From a virus, in the IMG/VR virus record IMGVR_UViG_3300017917_001819, positions 1-37,732 of that record: 37,732 nucleotides of DNA; one strand, 5' to 3'. Both the position numbers and the translations under genes were made by a program. Positions 16,897 to 37,321 of this stretch are shown piece after piece; the first letter of the stretch is position 1; each line of letters starts with the position of its first letter. Under the pieces are notes generated by a model. The model searched no databases, was not told where the DNA came from, and saw nothing but the letters and a program-made list of their open reading frames with translations.

Positions 16897-19617
16897 CTAA
16901 TTTAGCGTTCTTTTAACTCTAGGTCTAGGCCAAACAGCACCCGAAGAAGGCCTTGGTTTATAGTTTATTTTAGGATATACACTGCCATCTACTTCACGCT
17001 CTTTTTTGTAGTAAAGATACAGATTAGGAGCTCCTTGTAAATCTTTACCATCTGTAGGACCACCTGATGTGGCAGTTAATTGATCGGATTTTGCAATAGC
17101 AGTTATATATTCTTTAGCACGCTCTTGATTCATTTCTGGATAAATTTCTAATGCACAAGCAAGTACACCTGTTACTTGAGGAGAAGCCATACTGGTTCCA
17201 GAATATTTGCCCAAATAATAGGTCACTCCACCAGGAGCTCGAGCGTCATTTACTCCACTAGGCAATGAACTGATAATATATGTTCCTGGAGCCCATATAG
17301 TCACAGCAGGTCCGCAATCACTGTATAAAACTTTTTGATCTGGATTCACACTGTCCACTGATCCCACAGTGATAGCTGGCAGATCGTAAGTGCCACCGGT
17401 GGTATCATCGAGAGCTGTTGGGCTAGTTCCTCTCATATAGTAATAAGGACTGGCCACGCTGCCGGGATATCTATTAGCCATTTCAAATGTATTGTTCCAA
17501 TCAGGACCACCAGGTATTTCGTGTTTCCACCTTCCATTACCTGCTGCACCTACCATGATTATGCCTTCATCATAAGCATCTTCGATATCTACGTCCATCA
17601 TGCTTACTCGAGCAGGTATACGCTGTCCTGCTATAAATCCCCAAGCATTTAGTTGAGCTGTAGTGAAAGAAGTTCCTGACACAGTTTTACGATTATTCAC
17701 ACCCAATTGTAGATCTATTTGATCTGGGGTAGCTTCATAGAACACCCATTCATTCACCATACCTGGACTGCCTAAAGTACCTGTAGAGCTACCATTTCCT
17801 TCCATTCGAATTCTATAAGTTCTATTAGGAGCCGACCCTTCAACGCCATAATAAATTCTCTGTACAGAGTTATCATCAGCACACCACATGATTTTAGGTA
17901 TGTTGGGGTTAGAAGCACTCAAATTAGAATAGTTTGAAGATCCTGAACCAAATGTTACATAATGGTTAGTACCTACATAAATGGTAGAGTAGGTAACTCC
18001 TAAAAATCTAATATTGAAAGGCAAAGTTAATATCCAATAACCGTCGTCATTATTACCCACTGTCGGTGTGGTAGAACTAGTTAAACTGGCTGCACCCAAT
18101 AAACTACTAGCTAGTGTGGTCACTGTAGCAGCATCTATTATGGTTGGATCGTTATCTATTAAGATATCCATATCAAACGCATATACAGGACCGGTAACTT
18201 CAGCATTACTGATTGTAGTACTGTACACTATTGAATAATTACCTAGTTGAGCTAGGGTTGCTGTTTCATCTATTATGTTTGTGGCTGTGCCGCCGTTTGA
18301 TGACACAGTTGGTCCTACAGTGTACGTATTAACCACAGTGTTGTCGCTCTCTCTTCTGATTGTTATTGTGGTAGTAAGAGTAGTTACTCCACTGCTGCCA
18401 CCAGCTGATACATCACTCTGAACTCTTACACCTGCATTCACTGTATCAGTGCTCATTCTAACAGTGTAACTGCTTGCTGGCTGTGTTACAGCAGAAATAC
18501 TAGCATGATAATTAGAATCTCTAGTCCATGAAGAAGGATTTGAAATAAGTGCTCCTTCTCCTTGATCTGCTGTGCCTGTTGTGGTAATTCTATTTCCGTT
18601 ATTTTCAAAATTAACCAATGTGGCCAATCTTGTGGATGCTGTGCATACTCCGCTAAATCCATTGTAAGAGGTAGTTCCGCCTGTTGGAACATATCTAGTG
18701 CCCCTATAAGTCACTGCAGTGATGTCAGTGAGAGACCATTCTCCAGGAAATATACTCATTCCCCAACTGTTATTCACTATAGTGGGATTTTTCCTACCTG
18801 TGGCAGCATTTACAGATTTATTTTTATGAAATTCTCTTATGTAATCAAATACATATTGGAAATAAGGATACGTATTACCAGCATCGTAATAGATATTATA
18901 AATGTTAGCATCTCTAGCCCAACCTTGAGTATTTCCTGCTACAGTACCTGACACATGTGTAGAGTGAGAACCTGTACCATATGAGTAGGTTCCTGCTGCG
19001 GTTCCTCTCACTGCAGGATTATGTTGTTCCCAATTGTACTGAACAGTTCTATTAGAACCACTAGAACCATCTACATTAGAATTATATTCTGGATGACCCC
19101 ATACTATACCATTTTCATCACAAATTACACAATCTACATTTCTACCTGTTTGTGTTAATTTTATTGTACCACTCACTGCAGGAGTACCTGATCCTGTGCC
19201 TTCATATCCTGTACCACCCCATCCAGATCTCTGAGTTCCTTCTGTGCATCTTAATAGAGCAAAATTTTTCATGGCTTGGCTGGTACTGCTGGATTTATCC
19301 CATGCATCGCTAGACTGTTCTGTTGCATACAATCCAGCTTTAATTCCTAATTCATCGGGGTGTAATTCTACTGATTTAACTCTAGAATCTGTTCTTAATT
19401 GTGTGGCTTCCCAATCAGTCAATCTATAAACTGTGGCACGACTTATAGGTTTACGTTCTAAACATTCTATTTCTCTAGTGAGTTCAAGTCCTTCTGGTGT
19501 GCTGTCTAAAGTTTCTAATTCATTGTATAAAGATTCTAAATCTTCATAATTATGAACCATAACACAATATTTTTTAGTATTAACATATGGTGCTGACGTC
19601 GACGCTCTATCAGACAT
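16897..19617 (-). CDS. Subtilisin-family (S8) serine protease with large internal insertion
   Basis: 906 residues. Residues 15-90 resemble an I9 propeptide (VYRLTDWEATQLRTDSRVKS then VELHPDELG). The catalytic triad is present: Asp167 in VDCVICDENG, His218 in GSHSTHVSGT, Ser809 in YSGTSMASPQVTGV; the oxyanion Asn is Asn694 in VGAAGNGR. A segment of about 390 residues (roughly 290-680) is inserted between the NNSWG strand and the AAGNG strand. It seems to hold a beta-sandwich (375-500) and a nidogen-like unit (LPFNIRFLGVTYSTIYVGTN). The C-terminal tail is Pro/Arg-rich (WPRPRVKRTLN). There is no signal peptide. TTGGAGG lies 6 nt before the ATG and the upstream fibre gene ends 1 nt away, so it is co-expressed with fibres and may be virion-associated, processing fibres or attacking host surface proteins. 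Confidence 0.9.
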   Translation of the reverse strand: MSDRASTSAPYVNTKKYCVMVHNYEDLESLYNELETLDSTPEGLELTREIECLERKPISRATVYRLTDWEATQLRTDSRVKSVELHPDELGIKAGLYATEQSSDAWDKSSSTSQAMKNFALLRCTEGTQRSGWGGTGYEGTGSGTPAVSGTIKLTQTGRNVDCVICDENGIVWGHPEYNSNVDGSSGSNRTVQYNWEQHNPAVRGTAAGTYSYGTGSHSTHVSGTVAGNTQGWARDANIYNIYYDAGNTYPYFQYVFDYIREFHKNKSVNAATGRKNPTIVNNSWGMSIFPGEWSLTDITAVTYRGTRYVPTGGTTSYNGFSGVCTASTRLATLVNFENNGNRITTTGTADQGEGALISNPSSWTRDSNYHASISAVTQPASSYTVRMSTDTVNAGVRVQSDVSAGGSSGVTTLTTTITIRRESDNTVVNTYTVGPTVSSNGGTATNIIDETATLAQLGNYSIVYSTTISNAEVTGPVYAFDMDILIDNDPTIIDAATVTTLASSLLGAASLTSSTTPTVGNNDDGYWILTLPFNIRFLGVTYSTIYVGTNHYVTFGSGSSNYSNLSASNPNIPKIMWCADDNSVQRIYYGVEGSAPNRTYRIRMEGNGSSTGTLGSPGMVNEWVFYEATPDQIDLQLGVNNRKTVSGTSFTTAQLNAWGFIAGQRIPARVSMMDVDIEDAYDEGIIMVGAAGNGRWKHEIPGGPDWNNTFEMANRYPGSVASPYYYMRGTSPTALDDTTGGTYDLPAITVGSVDSVNPDQKVLYSDCGPAVTIWAPGTYIISSLPSGVNDARAPGGVTYYLGKYSGTSMASPQVTGVLACALEIYPEMNQERAKEYITAIAKSDQLTATSGGPTDGKDLQGAPNLYLYYKKEREVDGSVYPKINYKPRPSSGAVWPRPRVKRTLN

Positions 19618-35078: not shown

Positions 35079-35516
35079 TTAGATAACGTCGATAACACCC
35101 TGTCCAGATACTGGTGTAGAGTCTGCTCCACCCGTTTCTGAGCCCAATGAGTATTTCACCCATCCTGATGTACCGTCGGTAAATCCGTTTGTAGAGTTTA
35201 CACGATAGTGTACAGTGTTGTTGTAGAATTTTTCTACGTAAGCCACTGTAGAGTCATCCAGTATTACTCTCACGCAAAATTGACCTTCAGTCAAATATGC
35301 TGGAGCAACTGCTCTTAAATTTAAAACAGCATCAGTTGAATCGCTCTGTTGATGTATTTTAAATCTTCTAGAAGATCTTTGGCTGATGATAAAAGAATTA
35401 TCATTTTGCTGTAAAGATCCACCTGTTTGATAGTAAGCAGTAACTTCAATCTTGCCTGCTGTACCTTCTGGTGTTGATAGATCACTAAATCGTGATTTGT
35501 TTAAGGGTCTTCCCAT
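35079..35516 (-). CDS. Structural protein with strongly regulated leader (145 residues)
   Basis: Starts MGRPLNKSRFSDLSTPEG; beta-rich, with QRSSRRFKIHQQSDSTDAVL, CVRVILDDSTVAYVEKFYNN and VHYRVNSTNGFTDG. It resembles small virion proteins beginning MGRP in marine T4-like phages, possibly head- or fibre-associated; I cannot place it more exactly. It lies two genes downstream of gp23. Expression signals are unusual: a late promoter, a 99-nt leader with four hairpins, AAAGGAG 7 nt before the ATG, and a hairpin after the stop. Confidence 0.82.
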   Translation of the reverse strand: MGRPLNKSRFSDLSTPEGTAGKIEVTAYYQTGGSLQQNDNSFIISQRSSRRFKIHQQSDSTDAVLNLRAVAPAYLTEGQFCVRVILDDSTVAYVEKFYNNTVHYRVNSTNGFTDGTSGWVKYSLGSETGGADSTPVSGQGVIDVI

Positions 35517-35615
35517 TTGTTTTCTCCTTTGTTTAGGAGTCCAATGCCGGTTCTACCAGCTACGCGGTGGTTATCCGCATAAGTCCCCACACCATTGTGG
35601 AGCACAATTTGAACT
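35517..35615 (-). promoter_or_regulatory. Structured 99-nt mRNA leader, possible translational switch
   Basis: In minus-strand RNA order the hairpins are: AUUGUG/CACAAU with a 3-nt loop (35594-35608); GCGG/CCGC with loop AUAACCA (35564-35578); GCUGG/CCGGC with loop UAGAA (35546-35560); and CUCCU/AGGAG with loop AAACAA (35524-35539). The last one pairs the Shine-Dalgarno. The loop ACCA can pair with UGGU upstream (pseudoknot), and GGGG upstream can pair with the anti-Shine-Dalgarno CUCC, so alternative folds exist. The leader has no clear open frame. Its sequence AGCUGGUAGAACC resembles a tRNA D-arm, but no tRNA fold closes. Confidence 0.6.
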
Positions 35616-35620
35616 GCTTT

Positions 35621-35628
35621 TATTTATT
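35621..35628 (-). promoter_or_regulatory. Late promoter for the 145-residue gene
   Basis: AATAAATA on the minus strand, 104 nt before the ATG at 35516. Confidence 0.8.
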
Positions 35629-35704: not shown

Positions 35705-35938
35705 TTACTTCTTGTTATAGATGCCATATAGAACATAGATTGCTACCAGTCCTACAAGACCTTCTGCTGAGAAGCCTTTGATGATTGCGGTGATCGTACC
35801 AATGATACTGCCAGTAGACAAGAACGGTATTGCTTGTCCTTTGAACAGAATCTCTAACACGATTCCAAGGGCGATTAGGCTCACACCCACTTCTGCAAGT
35901 GTTGCAGCCCACGCTTTTACTTGTTTCAAGATATCCAT
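35705..35938 (-). CDS. Small two-span membrane protein beside gp23 (77 residues)
   Basis: A short helix (MDILKQVKAWAATLAEVG), a first hydrophobic span (VSLIALGIVLEILF), a short polar turn, a second span around GSIIGTITAIIKGF and a third hydrophobic stretch (GLVGLVAIYVLYGIY), ending NKK. This gives two to three spans. There is no signal peptide. AAAGGAG lies 9 nt before the ATG, and the gene has its own promoter and terminator, so expression should be high and separate. Size and topology allow a holin-like, membrane-assembly or virion membrane role; none is proven. An overlapping 80-residue frame is rejected as a shadow. Confidence 0.8.
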   Translation of the reverse strand: MDILKQVKAWAATLAEVGVSLIALGIVLEILFKGQAIPFLSTGSIIGTITAIIKGFSAEGLVGLVAIYVLYGIYNKK

Positions 35939-36145: not shown

Positions 36146-37321
36146 TTATTTGAATTTTAAAGTTGTTGAGTCGATCGTTACTGTACCTAAGTAGTCTTGA
36201 GCATTACCAAGAGATGACGCAGTGTTTGATAACTCTACGTAACCGTATCTTGTTAAGAAGCCCACTACTGGTTCAAAAGTAGACGGATCTAGCACAACGC
36301 CAGAAGACATCAACGGTATGTAAGGACAGTAGAACGCAGCAGCATCAGCTTCTGAAGTTCCTTTGTATCCTACTAATACTGAAGAGTTGTCTGAAGCGTA
36401 AGCGTTAACGTACACTCTCATAGCTGAGTTTAAAGTTCCAACAAATTTAGTGTTAGTTGGAGCTTCAAATGTACCTTCAGTTGATCTTGCGAACGCTGAA
36501 GTTGTAGCTGATTGAAGTATAGTTAAAGCAGTTGGTGATACCACCGCCCAGTTACCTGCACCTCTTCTAGTTCTTTGTGCAATTGTGTTAGCAACTCTGT
36601 TGATCAAGATTGCAAGTGCCGCATGCTCATCGCCTACGAAAGTTGCAGTTCCAGATACAGCTGATTGGTCGAATGCTTGCTGGTTAGCAGATCCTGCCAA
36701 TGTTAATAACGAACCGATGATTTCTTGGTCAATTTCAGCAGTAATTTCTTGTGCTAAAGCGGCCATGATTTCAGCTTCGATATCGATACCTTGCTGTGCC
36801 TGAGCGTCTTGAGCAGCTTCAAAAGTCCATCTTGCAGATAGTTTTCTTGATTTTGCTTCAACAGCTTGTTTTAAGATCTGGATGCTTAATTTTTTTCCAG
36901 GAGTACCTTCTAAAGAAGCAGTTGATCCTGCTTTTGTAGAAGAGTTGTCACCTGAATAAGCTTCAGCGATCTTGAATGGAGATAACGCTTCTTCACCAGC
37001 AGTTGTTGTAGTTGTACCGCTAGATGCTTCAGCATATCTTATTCTTAAAGTGTGGATTTGTCCCACTGGACCAGTCATAGGCTGTACACCAACTAACTCG
37101 TTAGCGATAACGGTTGGTAGTACCCGTCTAATTACTGGAAGTATTACTCTGTTTAATGTAGCAACGTTGCCGGCACTTGTAGCACCTGCAGTAGCAGACT
37201 CAGATAATGCTCTTCTAGTGTTTTCTAGAACGATATCTAAAGTCTTTTTTCTGTTACCACTTAAACCTTCGGTCAATGCGGCTTTTGTTTCGCCCCATTT
37301 TGATTCAAATAGTTCTGACAT
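36146..37321 (-). CDS. gp23: Major capsid protein (gp23)
   Basis: 391 residues, HK97-type fold; forms the hexamers of the head. The family motifs are ILPVIRRVLPTVIANELVGV followed by QPMTGPVGQIHTLRIRY, RKLSARWTFEAAQDAQAQQG, EIDQEIIGSL, and RRGAGNWAVVSPTALTIL. The N-terminal 60 residues are helical (LFESKWGETKAALTEGL) and are probably removed by the gp21 protease, as in T4. It is shorter than T4 gp23 (521), suggesting a reduced insertion domain. GGGA lies about 11 nt before the ATG. No late octamer is adjacent, so it is read with gp22; a strong terminator follows. Confidence 0.96.
   Translation of the reverse strand: MSELFESKWGETKAALTEGLSGNRKKTLDIVLENTRRALSESATAGATSAGNVATLNRVILPVIRRVLPTVIANELVGVQPMTGPVGQIHTLRIRYAEASSGTTTTTAGEEALSPFKIAEAYSGDNSSTKAGSTASLEGTPGKKLSIQILKQAVEAKSRKLSARWTFEAAQDAQAQQGIDIEAEIMAALAQEITAEIDQEIIGSLLTLAGSANQQAFDQSAVSGTATFVGDEHAALAILINRVANTIAQRTRRGAGNWAVVSPTALTILQSATTSAFARSTEGTFEAPTNTKFVGTLNSAMRVYVNAYASDNSSVLVGYKGTSEADAAAFYCPYIPLMSSGVVLDPSTFEPVVGFLTRYGYVELSNTASSLGNAQDYLGTVTIDSTTLKFK

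Follow-up and report, generated by a model that had tools for sequence, protein, structure and literature searches.

A freshwater-2 RNA (RF02980) before a putative virion protein gene of T4-like phages: probable control of translation initiation

The leader of a 145-aa protein gene in a viral DNA of 37,732 nucleotides (IMG/VR record IMGVR_UViG_3300017917_001819; the whole stretch is called the window here) is a clear member of an already catalogued motif, Rfam RF02980 or freshwater-2. Our best explanation, to which we assign a probability of about 60%, is that the freshwater-2 leader is a 5′ element of a late mRNA, lies before the gene of an MGRP-family virion protein behind the major capsid gene, and controls translation initiation. 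Comparison with relatives supports the family assignment, three hairpins (H1 to H3), covariation of the H2 loop with the start codon and, for the window's group, two further pairings. Two points are new beyond Rfam and a preliminary description made by eye from the sequence: the proposed pairing of the H2 loop with the start codon outside the window's group, and the finding that this group alone has a hairpin closing the Shine-Dalgarno (SD) sequence (CUCCU/AGGAG) together with a competing stem, P1. The element is thus ordinary as to family and informative as to function.

The locus contained the following features, listed in the order of the minus strand.
36146 to 37321, minus strand: gene 23, major capsid protein, the upstream neighbour (PHROG 138, E 1e-98)
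35705 to 35938, minus strand: small gene of 77 aa between gene 23 and the leader (ORF)
35621 to 35628, minus strand: T4-type late promoter box AATAAATA, read from the sequence
35615 down to 35517, minus strand: leader, preceding the 145-aa gene
35609 to 35615, minus strand: P1 5′ strand, AGUUCAA, complementary to 35544-35538
35514 to 35602, minus strand: RF02980 freshwater-2 RNA, full model 1-84, last part on the AUG (cmscan)
35585 to 35602, minus strand: hairpin H1, CUCCACA/UGUGGGG (fold and arm-swap test)
35561 to 35581, minus strand: hairpin H2, UAUGCGG/CCGCGUA, loop AUAACCA at 35574-35568 (alignment fold, pair types)
35546 to 35560, minus strand: hairpin H3, GCUGG/CCGGC, conserved loop sequence UAGAAC at 35555-35550 (pair types)
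35538 to 35544, minus strand: P1 3′ strand, UUGGACU, with a two-base overlap with the anti-SD (complementarity)
35524 to 35539, minus strand: SD-sequestering hairpin, CUCCU (35539-35535) with AGGAG (35528-35524) (fold; clade-specific)
35079 to 35516, minus strand: 145-aa MGRP-family gene, start codon 35516-35514 in AUGGG context; most likely a virion structural protein, by homology

The preliminary description had placed the start of the leader after a late promoter, and the box at 35628-35621 fits this; from its position and the T4 rule we infer a transcript +1 near 35615. A scan for sigma-70 promoters and simple terminators yielded nothing exceeding chance, and the 77-aa gene was without a PHROG match. 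The interval separating this small gene from the late promoter holds a hairpin, GGGCG...CGCCC, with UUUU after it (35685-35662, minus strand); the site is terminator-like, and its long loop caused it to be overlooked by the simple terminator scan.

The leader had not been recognised as a known motif in the preliminary description; cmscan identified it as RF02980 with 73.2 bits against a gathering cut-off of 49.9, the sole match across the whole window. The model covers the AUG of the 145-aa gene, so the RNA lies directly 5′ of a protein gene, and the Rfam label of the family is cis-regulatory. The leader and the Rfam model have in common the sequence, the three hairpins and the SD/start region; the alignment to the model and the relatives gave the layout of H1 to H3 with CUUAUGC...GCGUA and the UAGAAC loop, followed by AAAGGAGAAAAcAAAUG. 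The Rfam model, however, begins at H1, leaves the stretch from H3 to the AUG unpaired, including the SD tail, and contains neither P1 nor the SD hairpin, the loop:start-codon pairing or a stated function. The family reportedly comes from a 2017 survey by Weinberg et al. Among the papers searched, none named freshwater-2 or RF02980. No function was assigned to RF02980 in the sources consulted, and the late promoter, the capsid-gene setting and the start-codon covariation lead to a testable hypothesis of a translational operator. If true, T4-like phages would have an operator on a structural gene; the cases covered by one review (gp32, gp43, RegA; PMC3014915) are those of replication and of early or middle genes.

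Four consecutive hairpins had been read by eye, and folding bore them out: the minus-strand leader formed four adjacent stems with a minimum free energy of -34.4 kcal/mol (z = -3.1), and none of 200 dinucleotide shuffles was as good. The plus-strand fold of the same interval was unremarkable (z = -1.5). Conservation and covariation of the stems in relatives, proposed earlier as a check, were examined with 220 distinct copies from uncultured T4-like phages in IMG/VR, retrieved from the protein and with DNA patterns. In H1, the own 3′ arms paired far better than swapped ones (z = -14, 53 copies). Both H2 and H3 emerged from an alignment fold on their own; at 4 pairs both bases had changed, and the H2 pairs and the two inner H3 pairs were kept in every aligned sequence. 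In H2 a single pair varies freely (GC/UA/AU), on top of a near-invariant UAUGC/GCGUA stem, while 4-6 standard pair types occurred at each varying stem position of H3. The H3 loop read UAGAAC in 202 of the 220 copies and GAGAAC in the other 18, a count limited by the retrieval pattern, which demanded one of these two forms. Most copies were retrieved with patterns that fix UUAUGC, GCGUA and GAAC, so that part of the constancy seen there stems from the retrieval itself; in a protein-retrieved sample free of pattern bias, which covers the window's relatives only, the UUAUGC and GCGUA letters were also unchanged. Taken as comparative evidence, these data strongly support H1 to H3 by covariation. 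Two other candidates were set aside: a short reading frame within H2 (AUG CGG ...), whose frame was not preserved in relatives as judged by eye, and a pairing of the 5′ end of long leaders with the bases before UUAUGC, which was worse than in permuted sequences.

The genomic setting was constant across the family. Of 213 relatives, 212 had a TAAATA box no more than 60 nt upstream of UUAUGC. The distance from the promoter box to UUAUGC was 13-42 nt. In 123 of the 128 loci that hold gene 23, this gene was encoded upstream of the leader and on its strand. The downstream genes encoded MGRP- or MAR-type proteins and started with AUGGG (163 copies) or AUGGC (57 copies); the first DNA retrieval pattern had left the start codon unconstrained, and looking for variants with a different second codon gave no full-motif copy. 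Among 18 larger contigs, 16 carried one copy, one carried two and one carried none. Tandem arrangements were also seen: in L104 two leader copies (443-539 and 1636-1723) both stand before MGRP genes, and L633 has two pattern matches in tandem, near 1454 and 3173. A search of 84,980 bacterial and archaeal genomes yielded a single genuine match (L552), on a contig binned as marine Rickettsiales MED657, which we take as a weak hint of the host.

Outside the window's group, the sequence of the H2 loop followed that of the start region. CCC[A/G] was present in the H2 loop of 92 of the 163 AUGGG copies and in 1 of the 57 AUGGC copies (Fisher test, about 2e-15), and GCC[A/G] in 21 of the 57 AUGGC copies and none of the 163 AUGGG copies (about 2e-14); the copies in these cells are related by descent, and a vote by protein cluster and a gp23 tree were used as well. 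With one vote for each of 49 protein clusters, the ratio of GCC to CCC was 7:1 with AUGGC and 0:23 with AUGGG (p = 3e-6). In the KIAKAQ cluster, the sole AUGGC member has GCCA and its AUGGG sisters have CCC. Independent pairs on the gp23 tree gave about 2.6 changes in the same direction, 0 in the opposite one and 1.4 unchanged; with so few pairs the sign test was not significant. A 4-bp match between the loop and its own start was found in 137 of 188 copies outside the window's clade, compared with 30 when the fifth base was swapped and 38% when the loops were shuffled. For the AUGGC copies alone the comparison was ambiguous (27 own-start matches against 25 with the base swapped), and about half of them were without a better own match. 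The data suggest, with moderate confidence, that in most family members a pseudoknot of only about 4 bp joins the H2 loop to the start codon, AUGG[G/C]. A 4-bp loop:start match was present in none of the 32 copies of the window's group; the window loop, AUAACCA, gives only CCA:UGG.

In the window's group, the ribosome binding site would be closed in another way. The pairing of CUCCU with AGGAG had been noted before, and it held up as a clade-specific feature: in the window its central pair has an ensemble probability of 0.98, the minimum free energy state being the one with a closed SD, and over the group the mean predicted probability that the SD is unpaired was 0.19, versus 0.55 with shuffled tails (p = 2e-8). 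This probability was 0.76 in the short-tail class, the CUACU and CUUCU classes showed no difference from shuffles, and most family members lack the hairpin. Covariation is not to be expected in the SD pairing itself, as the ribosome holds AGGAG constant. On the gp23 tree most of the 32 copies share a single branch (3 changes), and thus the loss of the start-codon contact and the gain of the SD hairpin were close to a single evolutionary event and not a repeated one.

A stem unlisted before, P1, would join the 5′ end of the transcript to the tail and compete with the SD hairpin. It was kept in the window's group as three sequence versions (AGUUCAA/UUGGACU, AGUCAAA/UUUGGCU and CAGAGCC/GGCUCUG), with a permutation p of 2e-4 that is not corrected for relatedness. 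As a family-wide stem P1 was rejected (p = 0.14 after thinning to 80%, not significant), its support being confined to the window's clade. In the window P1 takes up two bases of the anti-SD. In the CAGAGC subgroup it takes up almost the whole of it, and there an open SD is the predicted default (0.73-0.85 in L016, L022, L035 and L037, in which P1 and the SD hairpin exclude each other more fully than in the window). In the window itself the exclusivity is partial (2 nt), with both stems supported in its clade; the combinations of the P1 and SD folds differ by no more than 0.5 kcal/mol (-31.3 to -31.8), and the probability of P1 is 0.11. The closed SD with a rare P1 in the window and the open default of those four copies count against our best explanation. 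Of the competing folds, P1 is the one with support; the two alternatives first put forward were not conserved: UGGU in the H1 region and ACCA in the H2 loop occur together in 4 of the 32 group copies, and a GGGG or GGAG in the H1 3′ arm, the proposed partner of the anti-SD, in 7 of the 32. Of the translational switch suggested at the same time, the sequestered SD is real and a leader controlling translation is the best-supported reading; what fell away were those listed alternatives.

The 145-aa MGRP product is most likely a virion protein because gp102, its homologue in phage PA5oct, carries the annotation of a structural protein, detected by ESI-MS/MS. Its model has a predicted all-beta fold (pLDDT 77) and resembles putative surface proteins of two jumbo phages, Atu_ph07 and fHe-Yen9; there was no confident PDB match, and a weak similarity to an SH3/Tudor-like barrel (Z about 3) was set aside. 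MGRP homologues were found in three isolated jumbo phages, Phosso, PA5oct and Atu_ph07. The DNA of isolated phages gave no match to the leader beyond one 21-nt chance match, and RF02980 was not found above its cut-off in PA5oct, GAP32, Atu_ph07, Phosso or Vibrio 2.275.O; the isolated jumbo phages related by gp23 are without the motif. That isolated jumbo phages have MGRP genes without the motif counts against our best explanation. The short leaders of the Phosso and Atu_ph07 MGRP genes (L709 and L711) contain CCCAU, complementary to AUGGG, which could be chance.

We propose the following mechanism. H1 to H3, with their invariant core (the UUAUGC/GCGUA stem and the UAGAAC loop), would serve as a scaffold. 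A pseudoknot of the H2 loop with the start codon AUGG[G/C] would form in most of the family; in the window's group this contact would have been lost, and the anti-SD hairpin would close the ribosome binding site instead. That hairpin would share two to five bases with P1, which would tie the transcript 5′ end to the tail, such that formation of P1 would weaken the SD hairpin (on) and opening of P1 would leave the SD closed (off). The trigger would be a protein that reads the conserved core; the MGRP protein is the likeliest candidate and would then act as a repressor of its own gene. Repressible switching by these locks in vivo, triggered by a core-reading protein, is what we infer from the above. 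At about even odds, freshwater-2 RNAs may be operators of virion genes in which the loop covers the start codon and the codon after AUG co-evolves with it (CCCA:UGGG, GCCA:UGGC), one lineage having swapped in an SD-sequestering hairpin that competes with a 5′-end stem; there would be one scaffold with two interchangeable locks.

As a guess, the state of the leader may be set by the product through feedback, or by some factor linked to head assembly; this is preferred because only one virion gene carries the element and by analogy with gp32 and gp43 of T4. A point against feedback by the product is that many MGRP proteins share only about 20% identity, whereas the RNA core is conserved. The same observation suggests a reader more conserved than the product, and would suit a regulator other than the MGRP protein, of phage or host (a RegA-like repressor, a ribosomal protein or an sRNA), that binds the core and so determines how much MGRP protein is made, or when, in relation to the capsid protein. 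As a rule, however, one gene per phage has the element, unlike the regulon of a global regulator, and we consider this alternative rather doubtful.

Two unrelated devices that occlude initiation on one conserved core argue for translational control rather than mere stability. A 5′-terminal stability element, in which H1 and the later hairpins shield an abundant late mRNA from RNase E-type decay and the start-region pairings are incidental, would fit the short members, where H1 starts within a few nucleotides of the inferred +1, and a virion protein is plausibly needed in quantity. It leaves unexplained, however, the invariant sequences of H2 and H3, the loop:start covariation and an SD-closing tail found in one clade only, and appears unlikely. 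The compact, highly conserved core with an expression platform hiding the SD or start codon would also be expected of a small-molecule or ion riboswitch acting on translation, but all 220 copies precede an MGRP/MAR-type, virion-protein-like gene and never a metabolic or transport gene, and each phage has about one copy. Protein feedback suits such a setting better, and a riboswitch appears highly improbable.

Our preferred reading, translational control of a virion gene, has its closest known parallels in other leaders. In T4 gene 32, a 5′ pseudoknot 67 nt upstream nucleates cooperative binding of gp32 and autogenous repression (PMC3014915). Both are phage mRNA leaders with a pseudoknot controlling translation of their own gene, as proposed here, but in freshwater-2 the start codon would lie inside the pseudoknot, the sequence is unrelated, and the gene is a virion gene and not a replication gene. 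Gene 43 of T4 and RB69 is autoregulated by gp43 through an operator hairpin, for which pairing of an anti-SD or of the start codon is not described (PMC3014915); a hairpin before the start with a conserved loop, read by a protein in our model, is common to both, whereas gene 43 has one hairpin and is an unrelated gene. Leaders of ribosomal proteins such as rpsO/S15 also contain a pseudoknot in a translational operator (PMC3014915), a likeness of principle only, as rpsO is a bacterial gene with a different structure.

Elsewhere in the window, a 906-aa protein (16897-19617, minus strand) with a subtilisin-like GTSMASP motif was noted by eye among tail/fibre-like genes.
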